The notes beneath the pieces were generated by a model. It saw only the letters and a list, made by a program, of their open reading frames with translations, had not been told where the DNA came from and searched no databases. Of a stretch of DNA of 64,000 bases, positions 82 to 56,379 are shown in pieces. The DNA is from Cucumis sativus (Eukaryota; Streptophyta; Magnoliopsida; Cucurbitales; Cucurbitaceae), in the NCBI RefSeq assembly GCF_000004075.3, contig NC_026656.2:18982607-19046606 (forward strand), in the 5' to 3' direction. Both the position numbers and the translations under genes were made by a program. Each line of letters begins with the position of its first letter. Within the stretch, counting starts at the first letter, position 1.

Positions 82-3000
82 CGATAAATCTTGTTATCAA
101 TCCAGCTTAGAAGCTTTGGATTGTGATGATGGTGACAAACGTCGAGTTCCTTCCTACATCAAATAGCTCGTTAATCATCTAGTAACTTCGTTCCATTGCC
201 CCTCCCTGCCCTCGTCGCACTGGGGAAGAATGGTGGTCATGTAATAATGAAAAATGTTGAAACAAAGCATGCATTAGAGGGCTTTTTTTTTCTACTATAA
301 GCATGTTTGTCTGTTTGGTATTCCAGAAACCTTTGTTTGGCTGTTCTTGTTTGTTCTTGTAAATAGTTTGGTTTGGATTATGGAACCTGTTTCTCTTTTT
401 AAATTAGAATGTTTCTTAGATCCTATTTTACTTGCAATGTTGAATTTCTAATCTCCCCAATGTTACCAATCCTGATCTATCACAATTGGGGGGAGCTTAA
501 TGCAATCAACATAGGTAGTTTAAAATTTTGGTTCAAGTTACATTCTATCTAACAAGATGGGGTTTGTAGGTAGGTAATTAGTCCCCATTGGTGTTTTTTC
601 TCTCTTTTCATTAGAAAGAACAACTCAATTGATTTCTTTTTCCCAAGTAGGTTTTGGATTGAAATATAAAATACATCAATGACATAGAATGAAAAAAGAA
701 AATGGAAGTTGAAAAACTTATTATTAAAACATTCACTTTTAAGAAAAGAATTAATTTGGTATACCATTTTTGGAAGGAAAAAATTGCACTTAAGAGTTTC
801 ATTTTTCTGAAAATGGGGCAATTAAACATCATGCCTCTTTAACATGTTGAGACTTTATGTATTTAGAATAATGAAGTTTACTACAAAATAACATAATCAA
901 TTTAGAGAATGGAAGGGAAAAAGAAATAAAATGACCAAAAAGGTGGTTTTTCTAAAAGAAATTTATGAAACCATCATTGTAGTGTTGACATCTTCAAGCA
1001 TTCTTGTGGCTGTTATTGTTGAAGAAGAAACTTAGGATCTGTGTGTGTTAGAATCATAGTGGACTCCAAGGGCTTCACCACTAAAATGCATCCAAGTTGC
1101 TATAAGAAATATGATATTCCCCATGGCAATTATAATACCCTCTCATTTCAACCTTCCAAAAGATTGTATTTTGGAGGTGAACGAAAAAGATTGCTCCATT
1201 CGACACATACCTAATCTCAATCCACAAAAAGATTCTCCTCACCTTCACATGCCACTGATAGTATATATCTATATATATTTTGAAGAAGAATGTCACTTTC
1301 AAAACAACATCACAATAACACACCAGCCTAGTACTTGCCATAGGTACTTTGAATTAGGGTCAAAACAATATAAACTTTCGCGACATGGAACAAGACCTAA
1401 TTCAAATCACGGAGCCAACAAAGAAACTATTGAGAATATAATATAAGTTACAAGCAATGAAGGAAGTCGAGACAAACAAATTGCTTTGCTCTCTCGTCAT
1501 TGATGATCGAACATATTTCACACCTATCGATTTTGTACATAATAATGACGTAAAATTTTCCATTTTATCCTTACATTTTGATTCCGACTTCTCATATATC
1601 TTAAATTGTCCTCTATAATTGTCCTCTCTCTATATCTATAAAGAATGCACACTAACATTTTGGAAGTATGGATTGTTTCCCACCAAGAGAACTCCATTGG
1701 AAATGATGAAGTGAGATGAAAATTAGAGAGAGACGACAAAGAAGTTTGTGGTTTCTTTTTCCTCTTCATGAAGGCCTTCAAAAGGACAATGGCACCATTG
1801 ACTATGATACAGTTTTGCTATGACACCACATTTACTATCAGTCACAATGAATCTAAACTTTGAAAGGACTAACAAATGGAGATATCCAAATGATCAATTA
1901 CATTCAAATATAAATCTCAAATAATAATATCATTCTGCCCTTCTTTATTCACTTAATTAAGTTCTCCAAATCTCAACTCAAATCATACTTCTTGCTTTTT
2001 TTCATTAACAAATTACAATAACTCTACCAACCCAACAAAATTTAACACACACCAACTATCTCGTTTTTTCTTTTCCTAAGGTACGTTTATCTTATTTTTC
2101 ATCAAAATTAAAACCTTACATTAATGTCAAAATAAGAATAGTAAATCAATTGAAATAATTTTTTTACAATTAACACACAAGAAATAGGTTAATTATTAAA
2201 AGAAAAGAAAAGTAATATGTAATTAGTAAAATTAGAAAAGGAAGCATCTAAATTTCTAAGGTACTAAAGACCTAAGTGTTAGGTGTAAAAAAAAGGTCAA
2301 AATTAAAACAAACAAACAAACCGACCTAATCAATGGCTATTTAAGTATTTATTGCTACAAAATGGCATCTACATCTAGGGCTGTTTTTTCTCTTATTTTT
2401 AATTAACTAACACGTTTACACGTATATAAGTATATATCGACCACGAACAAAAACATTATAAATTCAAATCTCTACCTATCATTTAATTTTTAACTTAAAA
2501 TGTACGTAGTTATCGTGTTGACATAACATCAAAACGTATGGAGAGGTCTACTAATCTATATAACAAGACGTTTTCGAATGCGATTAAAAAGTTTGGTTCG
2601 AGAACTACATAGCTAGATACCGTAACGAAATTTATGTAAAGGTTTGTAAGAGAGATATTGTATAATCCCACTTCCACTCGCATACATGGACATTTATTAG
2701 TGATTCTCAAAAGGGTCATTTGATTCAACATTGGTTGTGTGTGCCTTGAAATCTTACACTTATTTAATGACTGACATTTTCTTTTCTTCTTTTGGAAGAT
2801 CCAAACAACTTGGCTCCATTATTATTCATAAGAATGGAGAGAGAGAGAGATCAGAGAGGAAGAAGGAAAAGCCCTAAAAATGGACCACTTCATTCATATA
2901 TCTCAAATGAGACATATCATACAAATTTTGTAATAATGTATACTTTTAACCTACCCCTCTTCAATAATTTACATCTTTGCTTTGCTTTCTTTAGACCAAA

Positions 3001-3398
3001 CCCCATTCCATTTCTTTATCAACTCTAGTTTTAAGGAAACACTCTTATAGTTACACTTTATACCCCTTTTTAATCCAATCTATTGTATCTTTTTTTAGAG
3101 CGTGTCGGTCGTTTATATGATTTCGACTTAACTTTGTAACATATAAATAGTTTTAAGTTTTCAATTCTGTAAAATTTGATTAAGAAATGATCTATTATAG
3201 ATTATTGTTTTTCTAATTTTATTAATATTGTATTTAGGATTGAAGTAGAAGCATAGTTTTTAACACAGTATATGATAAGAACTAGATGCCTAGGATGGGA
3301 AAGTTACAATATAAAACCAAACCCTAAAATATGCAACTTGCATAAAAGGTGAAACTGATGAATCAAACAACCCCAAGTGGGTTTAATTTTGTAAACAT

Positions 3399-3423
3399 AT
3401 ATATACACACACACACACACACA
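3399..3423. repeat. TA/AC dinucleotide microsatellite
   Basis: A short TA run passes directly into about ten AC units. Confidence 0.9.
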
Positions 3424-5181
3424 GAAGAAAAAAAGTGCATCAACTTGTACTTATCAATATATGCAATTTGCCAATTGCCAACATTAGTTACCCTAAAGTA
3501 AATAGTATTTTAGGTGAAAATACTAGTGGTTCACGTTGCACTCTGCTCTTTCACATTGTTCAATGATGGTAACTTTTTCGTTTGTATAACAGTATTTTCT
3601 ATTATCTTAGTTAAGGAGTATACTGTTTCATTCCAAAGTATTTTTAGGTAAAAAGAAAATTATGAAAGAGACGTTGAAGTATTTGTCAAACTCAAACTTT
3701 TACAGCTAAAAATTTGATCTCTTTGGCTCTTAAGGGACCATCTCATTAATATATCTTTAGAGCTTCCTTTTTGGCTAAAATTTTGAGGTTACAATGTCGT
3801 TTTTTATGTGTCCCCACTTAATTTCCCTTTTCCCCTTTTCATAATCTCTTTTTAGTCTCACATTCCTTCATTCGTATGGTTTTCTTTTGATTATTTACGA
3901 ACCTCTTTATCACTGATACATATCATGACATGTATCAATTGAACTATACTCACTTTAGCAAGAATAATAATCATATGTATAATAAAGAACAACAAGAAAA
4001 ATGTGTATTGATTATCGTTGAAATATGTCCATTTTATGAACAAATTGTAATTAAAGGTGTAATATTGTTTGAATTATGGGATATTAAACTACCCATCAAA
4101 CCCTATTTCCTCCACATCTCAACTAGGCATGAGATTCATTAAAAGAGTTTAGAAGAAAAATGATGAGAAAGCTTGAAATTGTGGGTATGCAGTTTGGTCT
4201 GTGATTTCAAAGCAAATTTTCATCTATTTGTATTAGTTAAAAAGTACAATAATTTAAGTCATACAACATCATCATCATCATTTATTGCCCACTATATTAG
4301 TACCAATTTTATTTTATAATCTAAAATATAAATGTAAGAGAGTAATTAATTAAGGATTTGAAATATTAAATTAACTAATTATCTTTTAAGTCATGTGAAA
4401 TTAATACTAGATTATATATATATATATAAAATTAAAATGGTAGGTTTGTTTTGTAAAAAAAAAAGAGTAAGGCAAGTTGGTAAAAATGGGAGTGAGGTTG
4501 AATTAATTTTTGTTTGAATCCAAGAGTACAAAAGCGTCATTATAAGTATATGAAGATGGAGAGTAAGATTCTCCGCCCCACAAAATCCCTTAATTCATTT
4601 CCTTTTTTCTTTCTCTTTTAGGGTCTCTTCAACTAATTTCACTATTCTCTTTTTACCCTTTATAGCAACCTCCCTCTTGTTTTCATTTTCACTAAATTAA
4701 TAACAAAATTTTCATTCTTACATGTTAAAATTTTGAAAATTGTTAACTATTTTAATCAAGTTATATATATATATATAGTCTTTATTCGCAATAAACTTGT
4801 ATCATTATTATTTGGAAGGTTACGAACCACAATTCAAAACTCCTACTATTTGTCTAAAGAGATTTATTATTGTTAATAACTATTTAACTATCTTATAATA
4901 TTGTTTTTTAGCTCAATAATGATGAAGGGTAAGTAATGAAAGGGTGAATGTTATATTAGGTAAGAAACTAATGAGCTTTATTTATTATTGTTATTATTTG
5001 AATTAAAAGATGGGTTGAAAATTAGGATTTAGAAAGTAATTAAAAGTATAGAAAATGAAAAGACACAAATACCCTTTCATTGGATTATTATGTAAAGTGG
5101 GACAGCTGTGCAAAATGGTAACTTTTGACCCTTTTTCCAATTTAAATATAACAAACAACTTATATTAATAAAAACAAAATA

Positions 5182-7878: not shown

Positions 7879-7885
7879 TATAAAT
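7879..7885 (+). promoter_or_regulatory. TATA box of the bZIP gene
   Basis: TATAAAT lies about 165 bases upstream of the conserved uORF start. It is followed at the expected distance by a pyrimidine-rich tract of CTC and TTCTCC repeats (about 7910-8000), typical of plant leaders. Transcription would start near 7905-7915, giving a leader of roughly 440 bases that contains all three uORFs. Confidence 0.55.
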
Positions 7886-8009
7886 TCACCCTTTCCCCAC
7901 TTTCTCCAACCTCCTCCTCCTTCTCCTTCTCCTTCTCCTTATCTCTTCTCCGCCGCTCTCTCTCTCGCCCCCGTCCTACTTCTGCCCTTTCATTACCCCT
8001 TCCTTTTAG

Positions 8010-8063
8010 ATGCTCAATTTCTTGCTATTGATGTTTCAGCTTCATGTCTCCTATTCTCAGTGA
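8010..8063 (+). promoter_or_regulatory. uORF1 in the bZIP leader (17 codons)
   Basis: ATG at 8010 opens a 17-codon reading frame that ends at TGA 8061-8063. It overlaps the start of the conserved sucrose-control uORF (8044) in another frame, so ribosomes that initiate here terminate past the next uORF start and would tend to bypass it. The start context is weak (T at -3). Leaders of Arabidopsis group S1 bZIP genes are known to carry several small uORFs around the conserved one. The peptide itself shows no conserved feature I recognise. Confidence 0.6.
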
Positions 8064-8169
8064 AATTCTCCTTTCCGGTTTTATGATCAATTCCTCTCTA
8101 CGCCGCCGCACTCATCTCGTTCAATCTTTCTCTGTTGTCTTCCTCTACTGGTTCTACGTTTTCTCATGA
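8044..8169 (+). CDS. Conserved sucrose-control uORF (SC-peptide) of a group S1 bZIP mRNA
   Basis: ATG 8044 to TGA 8167-8169 encodes 41 residues, beginning MSPILSEILLSGF and ending VVFLYWFYVFS, with a central LRRRTHLVQSFS. From memory this matches the conserved-peptide uORF of Arabidopsis bZIP11/ATB2 and its relatives almost residue for residue. In that family the nascent peptide stalls ribosomes when sucrose is high and so represses translation of the downstream bZIP (sucrose-induced repression of translation). A second in-frame Met is at codon 14, and both starts have weak context (T at -3), consistent with leaky scanning. The stop codon lies 181 bases before the main ATG. No intron is needed. 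Identification is strong; sugar control in this species is inferred from the family. Confidence 0.96.
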   Translation: MSPILSEILLSGFMINSSLRRRTHLVQSFSVVFLYWFYVFS

Positions 8170-8192
8170 ACTTCCTTCATTCTTCTCCCTAA
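8166..8192 (+). promoter_or_regulatory. uORF3 overlapping the SC-uORF stop (8 codons)
   Basis: ATG 8166-8168 overlaps the last sense codon and stop of the conserved uORF (TCATGA arrangement) and encodes 8 residues before TAA 8190-8192. A ribosome finishing the SC peptide sits directly on this start, so it could add to control of reinitiation at the main ORF. That role is inference; the overlap is seen in the sequence. Confidence 0.5.
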
Positions 8193-8350
8193 GATCGATC
8201 ACACCAGATCCATTCATTTCTATCCTTATAATCATCCTTTCCATTTAGGTTTTTCTCTTTCGATCGACTATAAGATTAGATCATCTATATATATAATCTG
8301 TAATCGCTGTTTCTAAGTTTTAATTAATTGTTATCATCTTCATCATCTCT

Positions 8351-8848
8351 ATGGATTCTGCAAGCGGAAATAATTCCTCGGGTTCTATTAGGCTTCAAAA
8401 CTCTGGTTCCGAGGAGGATTTGCAGGTTTTGATGGATCAGAGGAAACGGAAAAGAATGCAATCGAATCGCGAATCAGCGAGACGATCTCGGATGAGGAAG
8501 CAACAGCATCTTGATGAATTGATGGCGCAAGTGACACAATTAAAGAAAGATAACGCTCAGATTCTTTCAAATATCAACATTACATCGCAGCTTTTTATGA
8601 ATGTCGAGGCTGAGAACTCGATTCTGAAAGCTCAAATGGCAGAACTCACGCAGAGATTGCAATCGCTCGAGGAGATCGCTAATTGCATCAACACCGGCGG
8701 CAACAATGATGGCGGATTTGGAGAAACGGAGGAGGAGAAAGCATTTCAGATTCAAACTATTGTGGCCGCCGATAGCTTCATGAACTCAATGAATTTCTTG
8801 TATGTCAACCAGCCAATCATGGCCACCGCTGATATCTTCCATTATTGA
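8351..8848 (+). CDS. Group S1 bZIP transcription factor (bZIP11/bZIP44 type), 165 aa
   Basis: Single-exon gene. The basic region around residues 31-50 (RKRKRMQSNRESARRSRMRK) carries the plant N-x7-R signature (Asn39, Arg47). A leucine zipper follows with heptad positions Leu57, Leu64, Ile71, Thr78, Val85, Leu92, Leu99 and Leu106. The C-terminus (NQPIMATAD) matches the tail seen in S1 factors. These proteins bind ACGT-core and related elements, prefer to heterodimerise with group C bZIPs, and reprogramme amino-acid and sugar metabolism under low energy. The ATG at 8351 is the first in frame after the leader and the length fits the family (about 150-175 aa). The gene lies 181 bases downstream of its sucrose-control uORF, which is the main regulatory feature visible. 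I cannot decide between bZIP2, 11 and 44 orthology from sequence memory alone. Confidence 0.96.
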   Translation: MDSASGNNSSGSIRLQNSGSEEDLQVLMDQRKRKRMQSNRESARRSRMRKQQHLDELMAQVTQLKKDNAQILSNINITSQLFMNVEAENSILKAQMAELTQRLQSLEEIANCINTGGNNDGGFGETEEEKAFQIQTIVAADSFMNSMNFLYVNQPIMATADIFHY

Positions 8849-10029
8849 GTAGTATTGAAGCTTTAATTTCTTGATCTGATCTATTTGTTAGAAAAATGTG
8901 AGTCCATGTTTCTGGTGATTTCCATTGCAAACAAGAACACAAGATCACAAGAACTAGAAATGGCCGAGAGGGGGCCTTAGTTGAAATTATTTTTGTAAGA
9001 GGGGGGTGGGGCATTTGTGCAAATCTCTCATCATCAAACTTAACACATTCCTCTTTTAATTAATATTGTTTATGGATCTAACCCCATATTTACAAATTCT
9101 TAATTCTCTCCTTCATTGATTTTATTTCTAAAATAATTGGACATTGATACCTTTTTGTCATATATATATATAGATATCTATTTAAGAACTTACCAAACCC
9201 TTTTTTACCTTTTGATGAAGATATTTCATATTTCCATATTTAAAAAATGTCAAGCTTTCAACTAAACAAGTTATATATTCATGAGCTGTCAAACAATTAG
9301 ATCAATGAAATATTAATTCAATATCATTTACTCCTAAGTATTCCTAAGTATTGCTTTTGTTTATAAAGTGTGGTAATTCATATAGTCATAGAATTATATA
9401 TAAAGAAAAATTCAAAGGAGGTGGGGGGAATATGATATTAATTTAGTTTGTACTTTTTGATTTGAGAAGGGATATAGAAGTGCTTTTGGTTGGTTATTGA
9501 GGGCTTTTTGATAAATGATTGGTCAACAATATTACTTGGGTTATTTGGATAATTGGCCCTAAATTTTGAAGAAAGGGACGTGTGGCTTCCCACTCAAATC
9601 AATATGCATATGGTTGCTTATGGTTGGGGTTCAAATATCCCTTTTTTTTCTTCTTTCTATTCCCAACCACTTCTCTATCTTCACATTCAATTCCATTTCT
9701 TTTCTTTATCACATTTGAAAAAAAAAAATCACTTTTATTTTGGGTTAATTTGACCTACTTTAATGATTAAACATATAGATTTGATAATCACATGTTGAAA
9801 ATCGAGGCATGTATGATGATTTATAATGAAAATTGAAAAACTAGTGATAGTTTCTTGAAGTATGATATGATATAACAATGTATGTTAGGATTTTTAGTCT
9901 TTCAACCCATGAAAAATCTTGTTATTACTTTTATTTTAGTTTATTGTGTTAAGAGGGAAGATTTAGTCGGCCTTTAATTGACCTTTTGATTGGTGATTTA
10001 TAAAATATTATCATTTTTTCTAATGAAGT

Positions 10030-10283
10030 GTTACAAAAGAAATCCTTCTTTGATTTGATAATTGAATTCTTAACAAGGTTGATATCTTGATTGTAATAAA
10101 ATGTCAAGATCCATAGAATACATTCCATAGAGCTTATATATTACTATAGTTTAATTGTTACAAAAGAAATCCTTCGTTGATTTGATAATTGAATTCTTAA
10201 CAAGGTTGATATCCTGATTGTAATAAAATGTCAAGATCCATAGAATACATTCCATAGAGCTTATATATTACTATAGTTTAATT
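10030..10283 (+). repeat. Tandem duplication, two 127-bp units
   Basis: Units at 10030-10156 and 10157-10283 start at GTTACAAAAG and end at AGTTTAATT. By eye they differ at only two positions (T/G near the start, T/C in the middle). Such high identity indicates a recent local duplication. No ORF or terminal inverted repeat is associated with it. Confidence 0.95.
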
Positions 10284-11855: not shown

Positions 11856-11857
11856 GT

Positions 11858-11941
11858 TGTCAGAAGTGGGATTTGAACCCACGCCCTCTCTCGAAGACCA
11901 GAACTTGAGTCTGGCGCCTTAGACCACTCGGCCATCCTGAC
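11858..11941 (-). tRNA. tRNA-Leu(CAA): tRNA-Leu, anticodon CAA
   Basis: Class II tRNA of 84 nt on the minus strand. The acceptor stem GTCAGGA pairs with TTCTGAC, with discriminator A at 11858. The D arm matches the A box (TGGCCGAGTGG). The anticodon stem CCAGA/TCTGG encloses the loop CTCAAGT, giving anticodon CAA. A long variable arm is present, and the T arm GTGGG-TTCAAAT-CCCAC holds the B box. There is no intron and CCA is not encoded, as expected for a nuclear gene. It does not match the plastid tRNA-Leu(CAA) sequence as I remember it. Confidence 0.96.
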
Positions 11942-12279
11942 AATTTTGAAATGAGAAAATGATTCATTTAATACAATATATATGATTTGAAAATTGAGTT
12001 AAAACAAACTAAATTTTATGAGTTAAAAGTTGATCATGAATTCACCTAAAGTAATTTAAATCAACTCAAAATTAATATCATTTATTTAATTTCATGTCTA
12101 TTTTAGATCATTTGTCCTAAAGAAAACAAAACGACCAAGTAAATCCAAGCATAACTCAATTGTTATTGCTAAAAGCATTAATAATCATCCTAAAGTTCGA
12201 GTATTCAATCTTTTGCGCACAATTTTTAACACAAAAAGGTTCATTTATCATCTACAAATATGAAGGTCTCCCACTCCCT
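11942..12279. other. Spacer between tRNA and the epimerase-like gene
   Basis: AT-rich sequence holding the upstream flank of the tRNA and probably the 3' UTR of the minus-strand gene that ends at 12280. Nothing else is recognisable. Confidence 0.6.
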
Positions 12280-33573: not shown

Positions 33574-38084
<4,511 letters not shown>

Positions 38085-38243
38085 TGTTGAATTATAAATG
38101 AAAAATTTTACGGTGGTGGCGGTGTTGTATGGGAAGGGAACAGAGACGAGAATTAAAAACAAAAACAAAAACGAAATGTTGAAAAATAGCAGAGATATGG
38201 GAGTGTGTGTGTGTGTTCTTTGAAGGGTAACGTAAGACTAAGT

Positions 38244-48223: not shown

Positions 48224-50701
48224 TCAGAACAGTTTGAAAAAGGACGACCTAGTTGCCCTTTGGCTTCCTAGCCAGTGTTGCATGTGAACTCCGATGGCGT
48301 CCAAATACAAGCTGCTCCTCCCATGGAAGCCAACTACTTTGCCCTCTGTCGTTGTTGACGTGAAAAACGACCCTACCTCCTCCCCAAATGGACCGAACTT
48401 CCCCCTGCTTGTGTGAAATGTAAGCGACTTTACAGCTTGTTGTCTCTCATCTTTACCGATGTAACCGTAATATCCTGATATACATGTTAACACTTCATGT
48501 GGATAATCCAATTTTACCTGTAAACATAGCCAGAATAAATTTTAGTTGATTGTGGACGTACTATATATTGACAGGTAAAAGAAACTGTTGAAGGTGTTGA
48601 ATTTATCGGTACCCGATGTATGGTTGTTCCACTGTTTCCTCCATGCCTAACTGACCAAACTGATTGTTTGTTTCGATCGTATTCAATTTGAATTGAACAA
48701 AAAGCTTCAAGAGACCGTGTCAAGTATATCTGTTTAATGCCAGAAAATACTCCATCATCCCATGGTTTACCGCCATCTCCACCCCATGGTCCAGGTCCAC
48801 AGGGTGCTGGTTCTTTTACTACACCACGAGCCATCTATGAAACATATAATCAATCCATAAGCCTTTCATGACCATACTTATATTAGCTTCCTCTGTTTTT
48901 TCAGTTGCTAGAAACATCTAAAATGATTAGCAGAATACCTCTTCAAGTGCTCCTTTTGAAGGTGCTAGTTTCATAGTCCAAGGGGCATTACTATTTTCAA
49001 GAAGTGGTGGAGCAGCAGGAATAATATCCCTGGAGGGAGGACGAGACAGCGGGGTCACCTTTCCTTCAACTATGTGCACACCAAGAGCATCTAGGAACAA
49101 ACCTTTCCTCCCATGAAATCCAACAATCTTCCCCTCCTTGACATTGGTACTAAAGGGGGTTCCTTGTGCCTCTCCAAATGGTCCGTACTTCGCTTTTGTA
49201 GTATGAAATGTGAGTGACTTGATAACATTAGGTCCCATGTACATGACAGGCCCATAGTGTCCAGTTACATGAGTCAAGATTTCATATGGATAATCAAAGA
49301 TAACCTGCAAAATCACCGTTATGAGTTATGATAAAGAGTGATGAAAGAGAGTCATAACTGAAAGGTGAAACTGCATGCCTTCCAATCCAAAATATGCAGG
49401 AAATTCTTTCACCTTGTCATATTTGAATCCTCCCGTTCCACCTGCCCGTGCTCCCCATATAGATTCTTCATCGCAAGCATATAGAACTCTTATGTATACA
49501 ATTCCAACATTGCGCGACACATTAATTTGTCTAATACCAGAGTAACATCCATCATCAAATACTGTTCCGCCCGAGCCGCCCCAAGGTCCACATGGTACCA
49601 CATTTTCAACTTTAGACGGTCCCTTCTTAACAGGCCTCTGAGATGACCATCACCAACCATTATTTGAGTCCAATTTTCAAGTCAAAAAGGCATAAACAAA
49701 AAAAATGTTTAATCCCACCTTAATTGTGGATTCATCATCACTTGATTCTGAGCTTGAGGAACTAGATACTTGTTTTGAGATAGTAGTTGGAAGAGGTGTT
49801 TTGAATTCATCCTTCTGCCTGACAGCAAGAACAATATCATAATTTTGACCAACACTTCCTTGTATAATTGAATACCCTTCATTTTCAGTCTTACTAGCAA
49901 GATGGTCCCGTGATTGAATCATTGCTTTAGATGGTGATTGTATAGCCATAGGCTTTAGATAAACTCCAATGGCATCCAGGTACAATCCACTCCTGCCATG
50001 GAACCCTACAATCTTGCCCTCAGTCGTTGGAAAAGAGAAAATTGTTCCTTGTTCGACCCCGTAAGGTCCATACTTCTTTTTGTTGCTCATAAAAGTTAGG
50101 GATCGAACAAACACTTTGTCAAATGACACAAAGCTACCATAGTGTCCACGGATCATAGTCAAGTACTCATCCGGAAAATCAAGCTTCACCTGTAAACCAA
50201 AAATGAAAACTTATTAGTTAGTACACAGAGACTCTTGTATTCTTCATCAATGATCAAACTAAAACCAACTTCAAACTGTCATTTAAGTATCATGTGGAAA
50301 TCTAAGTTTCATTTAAAAGAAGTATAGGACTAAAGATGTTTCAAAATTATTGAGCAAACAATCAATGATCCAACAAAGTATGAAGCTACCGTGTCTGTTT
50401 TAGTGCCACCATTTCCTCCATGTCTATCTGACCAAATTGAACTTCCCTTCACATCATATTGAATCTTAATGGAGTCGATACCAGCTCCATGGCAAATTAT
50501 CAACTGCCTGATAGTCGAATAAACTCCATCATCCCAATTATTTCCAGCTGGTCCCCCAAAAGGACCAGCCATGATTGGCTTGATTTTTCGAGAATCATCA
50601 AAACTCTGTGTGAGAAAAAACAAACTTCTAACTAGTTGTAGAGAATAGAAAACAAGTGAATGCAATCAAATAATACAAAGCAAATGAATAGCACCTACCA
50701 T
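48224..50701 (-). CDS. JAL3: Jacalin-related lectin with three jacalin domains (JAL3-like), 598 aa, 7 coding exons
   Basis: Minus-strand coding exons: 50701-50699 (ATG only), 50605-50390, 50189-49719, 49637-49413, 49304-48939, 48834-48613, 48517-48224, joining to 598 residues. Three beta-prism jacalin domains lie at about 13-152, 240-383 and 440-590. Each starts with a GPxGGxxGxxWDDG-like strand (the second has VFDDG) and ends in GFHGRxxLYLDxIG. The carbohydrate-binding GxxxD motif is intact in domain 1 (Gly141, Asp145) and domain 2 (Gly373, Asp377), but in domain 3 Gly is replaced by Ser570. A Ser-rich acidic linker precedes domain 2. No signal peptide is seen, so a nucleocytoplasmic mannose-type lectin is likely. 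Each domain is split by an intron at the same place. The intron after the ATG is supported by a good donor (GTAGGT) and by MSFDD reading in frame. Confidence 0.93.
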
Positions 50702-51887: not shown

Positions 51888-54560
51888 CTACCAATAATCC
51901 CCACAAGAACAGTGACCGTTTTTGAAATGGTGCAAGCATTTCGAGTCGCTTAAATATATTTCACATTCATAAGCCGCTGAGATATACTTGGCCATCTGAT
52001 GACAGTCCACGCACATTCTTAAGTTTTTCACAATCTTTATACTTTTACGTGTGTGAGATGAGCCAATAAGGCCAAAAGCAAATGCAAATTTTTCACAGTG
52101 GAACCCACCAATTTTTTCTTCTTTCTCTTCTTCTTCAATAGAGAGCTGATGGTGATTATTAAATTTCTTTACTTTCCCTTCAATGCTCTTTATCCAAGTA
52201 TTTAGAACGTCAAGTTTAGACTGGTCGCCTGTGACAAATAAATGGACTTTATTCCTGACTTCAACCCAGCACTGTGCTGTACATTTCTTCATCGCACTCT
52301 CTTTTCCAAGCTTTCTCACTTTTAGGGTTTGTTCAAATTTCCCATATAAAGCATATGCCTGCACTAATAAACGGTATATCACATGATTATCAGGCTCCAA
52401 TTCGTGGAGGCGCTTGGCTGCTAGAACTGCCAAGTTTAAGTTTCCATGAAATCTGCAGGCCGTAAGTAAGCTGGTCCAGATAGAGACATCGGGTTCTATA
52501 GGCATATCTTCGATGAACTCTATTGCATCTGCAAGCCTCCCAGAACGTCCATAGAGATCTACCATAGCCAAATAATGATCTAAAGTTGGTAGAATTTGAT
52601 GTTCTTCAGTGATGCTAGAAAAAACATGTCTTCCCTTGTCTACCATTCCGGCAATGCCATAGGCATGAATAATACTAGCCAAAGTACCTCGGTTTGGCCT
52701 AATTCCGAGATTTCTCATCTGATCAAACAATTGAAATGCAGAATCTGAACAACCATGTAAAATATATCCTGCAATAATTGAATTCCAGGTGATAATATCT
52801 TTGGATGACATGCCATTAAAGACAGTTCTTGAATATTTAATGTTCCCTGACTTGGCGTAAGTGTCTACAAGTGAGTTTGCAACAGCTAGCTCAGATTCCA
52901 GGTTTCTGCGCAACACACAACCATGGATTTCTTTTATCTTTTTCTCTGCCATTACATTTGCACAAGCTGGTAAAATGCTCAAGATGGTCACTGAATTAGG
53001 ACTAAAATTAAGAGACTGCATTTGTCGAAATATTGCTAGAGCTTTGTTCTTTTCACCAAGCTGATGGTACCCAGCAATCAGAGAATTCCAGGATGCTGTA
53101 TTCCGCTTAACCCCCCCATCTTTTTCCATTATTTGAAAGAGGTCCATAGCTTGATCCTCATCTCCATTCTGTATGCATCCTGATATCATCGCATTCCATG
53201 TAACAACATTAGGCATGACAGTTGATTCCCTTAATCTCATAAAAAGTTCGTATGCTTTTCCACCATATCCAGCCTGACAATATCCTCCAATCATCGAGTT
53301 CCATGTATAAACATCTTTTTCTAAGATCGTGTCAAATACATGGCGAGCAGCTTCCAATTTTCCACATTTAGAATACATATCAATAAGTGAATTCCCAACC
53401 AATGTTTCACGCGCAATTCCCATTTTAATTGCAAAACAATGTATTTCTAGTCCATTTTGCAGTGATTTTAAGGAAGCACAGGCTGAGGTTGCACTTGCAA
53501 TAGTTATAGTATTTGGTTCAACCCCTGCAAGAATCATCTTCTTGAAGAAATCCAATGCCTGACTAATCCTGCTGCTTTGAGAAAAACCTGAAATCATTGA
53601 GGTCCAAGTATAGACATCAGGCGCTAAACCCACACTCTCCATCTTCTTCTTCAAGTCTATAACAAGATCACAATCCCCCAACTGGCTATAACTAGCAATC
53701 ATTATGTTATAAGTAACCAAACCCGGTTTGAATCCTTGATTGCTCATCGTGTCAAGCAATCTCCTAGCTTCATCACCATTTCCCTTCTGGCAATAACCAG
53801 CGATCATAACATTCCAAGAGACCCCATCTCTTTCGTCCATGTTCCCAAAGAACTTCCTAGCTAGACTCAACTTCCCACATTTGACAAATGCCGTCAAAAT
53901 AGAATTGCTCAGACGCATATAACAACTCAACCCACATCGAATAACGAGAGAATGTATCAACTTCACAGTTTCAAGATCCTCGCAATTCCCACAAGCCTGT
54001 AGTATTTTTGGGAAAAGAAAGGCATCAGGCAGCACCCCATCTCCCATCATCAAAAAGAAAAGTTCAACTACTTCTTTCCATCTCTGCTCTCTCGAATATG
54101 CCCCTATCATTGCCGACCAAGTATACAAATTTCTCTCCTGCATTCCATCAAACACCTTGCGTGCATCCTTAAGACACCCACATTTCGCATACATACTTAC
54201 TAGCTTCGTCTCAACAAATGGGTTTACCCGATGGACTAAACCCATACGAACATGAAGCTCACGACCCAGTTCAATGGAACCCACATCTATGCAAGTTTGA
54301 AGCAAATTGATATACGTGTTGGTGCTTAACTTAGACCCACGTTTAGAAATCGAATCGATGGCTGTTATGGCTTCACGGAGTAGCCCATTGCTGCAAAGGT
54401 AACTCAAATGGTCATCATTGAACTTAGAAGTAAGTTTGTAGGTGAAAAATATAGAAGTTTTAATTGGTTTTGAAGAGAATTTAAGGGGTCTGGGTTTGAT
54501 AACGGAAGCAGGGCCAGAAATTGGAGGGTTCGTTTGGCAAGGAATTGCCAGTTTCTCCAT
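51888..54560 (-). CDS. PLS-class pentatricopeptide repeat protein with DYW domain, 890 aa, intronless
   Basis: Uninterrupted ORF ending in HCSCGDYW and TAG. Tandem PPR motifs of P, L and S type run through most of the protein; examples are YTWSAMIGAYSREQRWKEVV, VSWNVMIAGYCQKGNGDEA and TYNIMIASYSQLGD. E-type motifs and a C-terminal DYW deaminase-like domain follow: HxE at 821-823 (HCE) and CxxC at 850-853 (CVDC), so the zinc-site residues are complete. The PG box, usually PGCSWIEV, reads TAQCWVEV here and is divergent. Such proteins bind organellar RNA and direct C-to-U editing. The N-terminus looks like an organelle targeting peptide. A GTG at 54593 extends the frame, but ATG 54560 is the first AUG. 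The likely Arabidopsis counterpart is At1g19720 (from memory). Confidence 0.96.
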   Translation of the reverse strand: MEKLAIPCQTNPPISGPASVIKPRPLKFSSKPIKTSIFFTYKLTSKFNDDHLSYLCSNGLLREAITAIDSISKRGSKLSTNTYINLLQTCIDVGSIELGRELHVRMGLVHRVNPFVETKLVSMYAKCGCLKDARKVFDGMQERNLYTWSAMIGAYSREQRWKEVVELFFLMMGDGVLPDAFLFPKILQACGNCEDLETVKLIHSLVIRCGLSCYMRLSNSILTAFVKCGKLSLARKFFGNMDERDGVSWNVMIAGYCQKGNGDEARRLLDTMSNQGFKPGLVTYNIMIASYSQLGDCDLVIDLKKKMESVGLAPDVYTWTSMISGFSQSSRISQALDFFKKMILAGVEPNTITIASATSACASLKSLQNGLEIHCFAIKMGIARETLVGNSLIDMYSKCGKLEAARHVFDTILEKDVYTWNSMIGGYCQAGYGGKAYELFMRLRESTVMPNVVTWNAMISGCIQNGDEDQAMDLFQIMEKDGGVKRNTASWNSLIAGYHQLGEKNKALAIFRQMQSLNFSPNSVTILSILPACANVMAEKKIKEIHGCVLRRNLESELAVANSLVDTYAKSGNIKYSRTVFNGMSSKDIITWNSIIAGYILHGCSDSAFQLFDQMRNLGIRPNRGTLASIIHAYGIAGMVDKGRHVFSSITEEHQILPTLDHYLAMVDLYGRSGRLADAIEFIEDMPIEPDVSIWTSLLTACRFHGNLNLAVLAAKRLHELEPDNHVIYRLLVQAYALYGKFEQTLKVRKLGKESAMKKCTAQCWVEVRNKVHLFVTGDQSKLDVLNTWIKSIEGKVKKFNNHHQLSIEEEEKEEKIGGFHCEKFAFAFGLIGSSHTRKSIKIVKNLRMCVDCHQMAKYISAAYECEIYLSDSKCLHHFKNGHCSCGDYW

Positions 54561-56379
54561 TGTTAATGGTAGTATAGATTTGTTCTTCTTCACCCCTTTG
54601 GAAAGTTGTTTGATTTACACATTTGTTTTCATTAAAATTATGAACAGAAGATCAGAAGATCAGAAGATGGCGCAAGTTGTGGACGTGGCGCCTTCTCCAT
54701 TGGCTCTACTGGATGGGGTTATCACATACTCTTTCTACTTTCTAACATTTTCCCACTTTTGTTTAACATTGATTTTTACTTTTAACAATCAAAGTCAGAC
54801 CTTTTTCGTTAATGAAGACAAAAATATACTAAACTATACACTATACTCATCTAAAACAATTTCCATCTTAGCCTTTGGCTTCAACCTTATAATTTTTTTT
54901 TTTTACATTCTCATTAAAAGCTTATAAAAAAAAAAACAATTAATACCATCTATGCACATTGGTCATTCCACTGACAAATATAAAAATTTAAGATATGCTT
55001 GAAAAAATAGTAAAATAATAAAATTTATCATAACACGAACCATGTTACTTTTTCTAAATTGCAAAAATAGAAAATTTAAAAGTAAACTAATTATCTTTTA
55101 TAAATGTTTTTGTCAATTTTTTAAAATTTAATGTTTATGACAATAATTATAAAATAATTTAAATGAAATAGTTGGATTGCAAATTAAATTTGGAAAATCT
55201 TAATTTAATCCTAATACTCGAATTTATAAAGCAAAATGATTAATGTGTTTAGATAAAAATTTGACTTTTTATTGTTTTACTAAAAATATATATAGCAATT
55301 TGGCCATTTAAAATAACTTTTTTATAAATTTTATTTATTAATTAGTTTTAAATTTTTTAAAAGAAATTAATTTTATTTGTAAATTATTATTTTTCGACAA
55401 TATAAATAAATATATATATGAACATGCTTTATTGGAAAAATTACTCATAAGTCAGTGTCTTTTTAATTTCTTAAGATTGTATATGAAATTATGAACCTGT
55501 TGACTCAATCGACAAATCTCCAAAAGTTTCATGATTTGAATTTATTTACTATTAGTATTACTATTCAAATAAAAAAGAGATTCAAACATCTTTCAACGTT
55601 GCTTTCAAAGATCCGGTTCAGCATCTTGCCCACTACAGAAAAGGAAGTTGAGTGAACCAAAACCTCACACCAAAAGGTTGAAATTCTTTCTTTAGAAAAA
55701 TTACCATCTTTTTCTTCAGAAGTGATTCTCCAAACACGTCTCTTTTTATAATAAATAAATAAACGAAATTTGTGGGTTGCACACCTAATAAAAATTAAAC
55801 AATGTCATGCGCTAAAGAAACAAATTTAAAAGATTAGGCGTCACACCTAGTCATTGGTTTTTACAAATACATTGAAAATCCCACCCCACATTTCACACGG
55901 CCATGCATATACTCACATATATTCCCTTTGGCCTTTGCTAAGAAACAAAACAAACATTAACATTCAAATATTTGAAGACATTCGCTAAACTATTAGAGAG
56001 ACGTAAATTTCAATTCTAAGCCAATGATACAAAACTCAAAGTCTCTCCCAGCCCTATAGACACAGAATAAAATCGAAAGTTACTGTACACAAAACAGTAG
56101 AGCAGATTGCTGATAGAATGTGCAGATCCATGCAACTTCATAGTTCAACAAAGTCCTTGCCCCATTTATTATTCCATGATGAAACCTGCAAATTCTATGG
56201 TATAACAAGCACGAAAGATATATTGAGAGTTGCACATATTATCCAAACTTCTTTAAATGGAAACCAAGAACAGTAAATATCTTCAAACTCATTGTTATGC
56301 CATTCATAAGAAGAACAAACTAGAAACCAGAATCAACATTACACCATACTGATAATAATAAGAATAAGGGTACGTTCCT
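54561..56379. other. PPR promoter region and 3' flank of thioredoxin gene 1
   Basis: AT-rich spacer, especially 54880-55560. The last 250 bases probably form the 3' UTR of the thioredoxin gene and share short stretches (for example CAGAATCA...CACCAT...AATAATAAGA) with the 3' flank of the second thioredoxin gene. Confidence 0.6.

Follow-up and report, generated by a model that had tools for sequence, protein, structure and literature searches.

Evidence for a sucrose-control uORF ahead of an S1-type bZIP gene in cucumber

The window analyzed here, a 64,000-nucleotide stretch of Cucumis sativus DNA, contains a small bZIP gene preceded by a short open reading frame. Does this frame encode the sucrose-control (SC) peptide, and would it make synthesis of the bZIP protein depend on sucrose? 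A sequence-only reading had claimed a 41-codon uORF at 8044-8169 and a bZIP starting at 8351. Translation bore out both, with the uORF intact from ATG to TGA, and set the end of the bZIP ORF at 8848, giving three features:

8044..8169, plus strand: SC uORF (uORF2a), intact, 41 codons plus TGA
8083..8169, plus strand: internal in-frame start, uORF2b-like, 28 aa, conserved C-terminal core
8351..8848, plus strand: main ORF, S1-type bZIP transcription factor of 165 aa, single frame without intron

The peptide translated from 8044-8169 is MSPILSEILLSGFMINSSLRRRTHLVQSFSVVFLYWFYVFS, followed by the TGA stop, and a spacer of 181 nt separates this stop from the bZIP ATG. A nascent chain of 41 aa would not be expected to adopt a meaningful free fold. 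The protein encoded at 8351 matches Pfam bZIP_1 (PF00170) with 42.5 bits (E 7.1e-11), and bZIP_2 also passes the cut-off; a search of the PDB with it (E up to 0.01) returned 0 matches. Group S bZIPs are usually intronless and, as expected of an S1 member, the protein is small, comes from a single exon, and carries a bZIP domain.

The SC peptide of AtbZIP11 has 42 residues, and the one in the window has 41. Ser29, Ser31, Leu35, and Tyr39 of the AtbZIP11 peptide are thought to be essential, and the position of its stop is described as invariable among angiosperms (PMC4960570; this and all other papers are cited from excerpts). The window peptide carries the corresponding residues at a constant offset, as Ser28, Ser30, Leu34, and Tyr38. 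Across 726 ATG-to-stop frames of 20-100 aa (both strands of the window, nested starts included), S, S, L, and Y occur at the required C-terminal distances only in the 8044 ORF, which was scored twice via its internal ATG.

Searching the C. sativus assembly (226.6 Mb, 88 contigs) with the SC peptide gave at least six significant matches including the window copy, with E from 2.5e-20 to 5.4e-4. At least five lie outside the window (E 2.4e-18 to 5.4e-4):

C4:3641658: SC copy, 90% identity to the window peptide
C6:27549060: SC copy, 83% identity to the window peptide
C3:37154225: SC copy, 80% identity to the window peptide
C2:12484431: SC copy, 71% identity to the window peptide
C4:694789: SC copy, 67% identity over 27 residues to the window peptide

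The reversed peptide found no match in the same genome, a weak control in that an empty answer alone shows little. The sequence-only reading had named a lack of conservation in related species as one of two refuters; instead, the peptide is conserved within this genome in at least six copies. All six listed copies lie upstream of bZIP genes, with 125-213 nt from the SC stop to the bZIP ATG. Each ends in TGA and keeps the four essential residues at the same distance from the stop, in line with an invariable stop position; in AtbZIP11 itself this distance is presumably the same. The C2:12484431 copy is 42 aa long, and its essential residues fall exactly at 29, 31, 35, and 39. The C4:694789 copy, which precedes a gene that we take to be bZIP53-like, has a uORF of only 28 aa, equivalent to the form starting at 8083. 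An internal ATG accompanies the long form in two of the six copies (window and C2:12484431) and is missing from three.

The selection and identity comparisons were made between paralogues of this one genome. For the four 41-aa copies (6 pairs; the other two copies were excluded from full-length dN/dS by their differing length), dN is 0.06-0.14, whereas dS is 0.59-2.45 in five pairs and saturated in one; dN/dS is ~0.06-0.16 in those 5/6 pairs. When the last 15 codons are compared across the six copies, every one of the 15 pairs has pN below pS. Nucleotide identity (6 pairs) reaches 72-87% within the uORF but falls to 43-58% over the 120 nt preceding it and to 38-50% in the stretch up to the bZIP. 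With dN far below dS and flanks far less identical than the frame itself, the SC uORF sequence is kept for its peptide.

We next consider which bZIP genes carry the uORF. The bZIP search of the genome gave 17 match rows; two of them fall in separate exons of a single gene and were counted together. Outside its own locus, the 8351 protein has its best four matches in SC-bearing genes. The remaining SC-bearing gene, on C6, ranks lower and is split over two exons; in this gene (L024, coding start 2812), a gap at ~2986-3725 is an apparent intron of ~740 nt with GT/AG ends inside the leucine zipper. When the SC peptide was run by tblastn against the 17 bZIP loci (match plus 1.5 kb on each side), strong matches (E < 1e-6) appeared only in the six SC genes. 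The C6 locus has a second, weak match on the opposite strand (E 0.011). Among the other bZIP genes found with a usable frame, seven show chance-level SC matches only (E ≥0.1 in 3-kb loci), and one contains a relic; tblastn matches in L012, L015, and L020 are likewise at chance level (E 0.1-0.4). In a midpoint-rooted tree of 14 bZIP proteins, the seven SC or relic genes stand apart from the seven others with weak support (67/92); L022, whose frame breaks inside the bZIP domain, and L023, with no frame of 90 aa, were left out. Among the genes examined, the SC uORF is restricted to one bZIP subgroup.

The relic lies on C7, ahead of a bZIP gene that we presume to be bZIP53-like (L016, coding 1519-1908). 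At 1336-1389 of this locus there is a degraded SC-like stretch with no in-frame ATG before it and a shifted stop, in which the Leu34 and Tyr38 positions are changed (ungapped alignment, by eye). Its alignment score against the C4:694789 copy was reached by 0/1000 shuffles, and that against the window copy by 2/1000; tblastn of the SC peptide against the locus gave a weak match (E 0.011-0.029). The relic fell below threshold in both whole-genome peptide searches, one of which recovered just 4/6 copies. Further, the L016 bZIP is sister to the C4:694789 gene with support 100/99 in the tree of 14 proteins. The L016 gene may have escaped sucrose repression. S1 bZIPs without the uORF are already known: five of ten poplar S1 bZIPs have uORFs in the excerpt of PMC11120861.

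Taken together, it is very probable that 8044-8169 is the SC uORF of an S1 bZIP and that, at high sucrose, a stall at its stop lowers bZIP synthesis. The identification as a sucrose-control (homology group 1) uORF of an S1-type bZIP, which the sequence-only reading had proposed, is well supported at the level of sequence: the uORF has the right position and peptide, keeps the residues reported as essential, is under purifying selection, and is confined to one bZIP subgroup among the genes examined. By analogy with the family, the uORF would be present in the mRNA, stall ribosomes, respond to sucrose, and act as a repressor. Scanning ribosomes would start at 8044 or at the internal 8083, and the last ~28 residues would occupy the exit tunnel as TGA enters the A site. 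At high sucrose the nascent peptide would halt the ribosome at the stop codon, and the stalled ribosome would bar later scanning subunits, leaving the bZIP at 8351 poorly synthesized. At low sucrose, normal termination followed by leaky scanning, or reinitiation over the 181-nt spacer, would allow the bZIP to be made. The expectation of a stall, raised in the sequence-only reading, holds for an SC-family uORF, but its placement near codons 35-41 needs correcting: Yamashita 2017, by its title, reportedly places the stall at the stop codon, so we expect it at 8167-8169. For other conserved-peptide uORFs, PMC9305500 reports degradome ends ~16 and 46 nt ahead of the stop. Sucrose-dependent ribosome stalling on the SC uORF is the family mechanism given in excerpts of PMC8795868 and PMC6165531. 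Judging from the C4:694789 copy, which has only 28 aa, the peptide may work through its C-terminal 28 residues; this agrees with a passage of PMC1896003 that attributes the repression of AtbZIP11 by sucrose to uORF2b.

A conserved SC-type uORF could also repress constitutively or answer a signal other than sucrose. The response to sucrose is ascribed to this gene by analogy with its family, and the copies do differ outside the four essential residues (His replaces Tyr35 in the C3 copy, and Asn replaces Val39 in one C4 copy), so that the response could differ between genes. Nevertheless, the four residues reported as essential are all present, and PMC4960570 describes sucrose repression even with gymnosperm uORFs that lack two of these, which makes a different signal or none very improbable here. 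Repression by sucrose has been measured with reporters for Arabidopsis, tobacco, and two gymnosperm leaders (excerpts of PMC4960570 and PMC3310857).

For the sucrose-stall reading to apply, the uORF should lie within the mRNA leader. The upstream region contains three further features:

7879..7885, plus strand: TATA-box-like TATAAAT, 165 nt before the SC uORF
8010..8063, plus strand: uORF1, 17 aa, with a second in-frame ATG at 8031; overlaps the SC uORF start in a different frame
8166..8192, plus strand: uORF3, 8 aa; its ATG overlaps the SC stop as ATGA

Transcription starts ~30 nt downstream of a TATA box, and a start is predicted at that distance from the TATAAAT at 7879. Shuffling the 300 nt ahead of the window uORF produces a TATAWAW match 3.8% of the time. 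Such matches stand at -151 to -165 in 4/6 copies; the two remaining copies have theirs at -219 and -292. For three of the six, the match is weak evidence, as the shuffle rate there is 16-19%. The 120 nt before the window uORF are 82% pyrimidine. Given the TATAAAT and this pyrimidine-rich stretch, the uORF most likely lies within the mRNA leader. Removal of the uORF by splicing seems unlikely, as 7905-8044 has only two GT dinucleotides (7973 and 8033), and by eye neither resembles a good donor.

Counted from 7879, the leader has five upstream ATGs, at 8010, 8031, 8044, 8083, and 8166. The context at 8044 is TTCATGT; on the scale of PMC3020687 (excerpt), 8010, 8044, and 8083 are weak and the bZIP start is moderate. 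The weak upstream contexts would permit leaky scanning to the bZIP at low sucrose. In all six copies a short ATG frame begins 17-40 nt before the SC uORF. It ends at an out-of-frame TGA within the Leu-Ser-Glu codons in four copies, in an ATGA overlap with the SC start in one, and before the SC start in one.

Some or most transcripts might instead start between the uORF and the bZIP, skipping the uORF. A TATATATA run at 8286-8296, between the SC uORF and the bZIP, could possibly be a second promoter giving uORF-free transcripts, and similar runs occur in two of the five other copies (C3 and C4:694789). Such runs are, however, unsurprising in AT-rich DNA: a match like that in the window arises in 23% of its shuffles, the rate across the three spacers concerned is 16-34%, and 3/6 leaders have no such run. 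Moreover, the TATAAAT and pyrimidine-rich leader lie upstream of the uORF, and a start located solely downstream of it would not account for the selection on the peptide; we consider this explanation extremely improbable. Finally, ORFs of comparable short length are common in the window, but we give negligible probability to the idea that the 8044 frame arose by chance or belongs to a larger protein-coding exon. It was rejected on the conservation pattern (genome matches, reversed control, selection, and residue scan): the peptide is under selection, 6/6 copies have a start, stop at the same position, and lie before bZIPs, and the peptide has no Pfam or PDB match. In those searches the SC peptide gave no match in Pfam and 0 matches in the PDB at E up to 10. 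A tblastn search of 72,556 plasmid records, taken to E 1, was likewise empty, as expected of a plant feature.

The SC uORF of the window is read as one that would stall ribosomes in response to sucrose, and it is an ordinary member of a known system, HG1 or SC peptide. The finding is correct but ordinary, since the HG1 family has already been described. The group is HG1 of Hayden and Jorgensen (excerpts of PMC2075485 and PMC3426882), and PMC4960570 places the origin of the SC uORF in the seed-plant ancestor. Like the SC uORF of AtbZIP11/ATB2 (uORF2, HG1), the cucumber uORF stands before an S1 bZIP, has the essential residues in register, and belongs to a leader with several uORFs, weak upstream starts, and an in-frame internal start (2a/2b); in both, the SC uORF overlaps what follows. 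Unlike AtbZIP11, the essential residues are at 28, 30, 34, and 38, and one short uORF follows the SC uORF rather than two. The AtbZIP11 leader has four uORFs, with weak uAUG1 and uAUG2a, in the passages of PMC3020687. The layout also resembles that of tobacco tbz17, which shares a three-uORF leader with the SC uORF second and for which sucrose repression was shown by reporter (excerpt of PMC3310857). There, however, the three uORFs occupy three frames, whereas uORF1 and uORF3 share one frame here. A figure in PMC8795868 is said there to sum up the S1 bZIP uORFs of several crops, cucumber included. A literature text search with stretches of the SC peptide and one guessed variant found no paper printing them. 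AdoMetDC (HG3) and phosphoethanolamine N-methyltransferase (HG13) have other metabolite-responsive conserved-peptide uORFs, in different genes and with different signals; to our knowledge, their peptides are unrelated to the SC peptide. S1 bZIPs form heterodimers with group C bZIPs. Sugar and amino-acid metabolism is under the control of S1 bZIPs, and strawberries with an edited SC uORF had more fruit sugar, according to the part of the review PMC8795868 cited here. Knowing the six intact SC uORFs and the relic could guide uORF editing in cucumber, but the mechanism has been worked out elsewhere.

The nucleotides around the SC stop (8164-8172 in the window) show a pattern of their own. The last serine codon is TCA in 5/6 copies versus 2/34 other serine codons (Fisher p = 0.00018, uncorrected for the copies' common descent). 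The stop context is TGAAC in 5/6 copies, with AC plus T or A after the TGA in five. Each of the three bases after TGA agrees in 5/6 copies, whereas only one more column among the next 37 does. An ATGA overlap at the SC stop occurs in 5/6 copies and opens a mini-uORF of 2-15 codons. The sixth copy (C6, TCGTGA) has no ATGA; there, an overlapping frame of 10 aa begins at an ATG 11 nt earlier. Because the C6 copy keeps AC without the overlap, it may be the stop context, and not uORF3, that is constrained; the C2:12484431 copy shows the reverse, with the ATGA overlap retained and the AC lost.

These observations raise the tentative idea, which we rate as improbable on six related sequences, that the stall-site nucleotides are themselves part of the switch and that stop-start coupling adds a further layer to sucrose sensing. 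Ribosomes that stall or are released slowly would pass to the mini-uORF, or termination would be tuned by the TGA-A-C context. In AtbZIP11 an overlap with later uORFs is already known, with uORF2b overlapping uORF3 and uORF4 (excerpt of PMC1896003); what is new is how tightly the two are coupled at the stop. Were this correct, TCATGAAC at the SC stop would be kept in seed plants beyond codon-usage expectation. The conserved stop context would be a small, testable addition to the known system.

Elsewhere in the window, a 127-nt tandem duplication (10026-10279, 98% identical) lies downstream of the bZIP gene. Rfam over the whole window gave nothing but one tRNA; a tRNA-Leu with anticodon CAA is at 11856-11942 on the minus strand. 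Also on the minus strand are exons resembling a cytokinin dehydrogenase gene at 33574-38237 (Pfam FAD_binding_4 and Cytokin-bind) and a single 907-aa frame at 51888-54614 that encodes a PPR protein with an E motif and a DYW deaminase domain. Jacalin-like lectin frames cluster, by eye, at 48224-50665 on the same strand, and Pfam Jacalin was confirmed for 49680-50210, the only one scanned.
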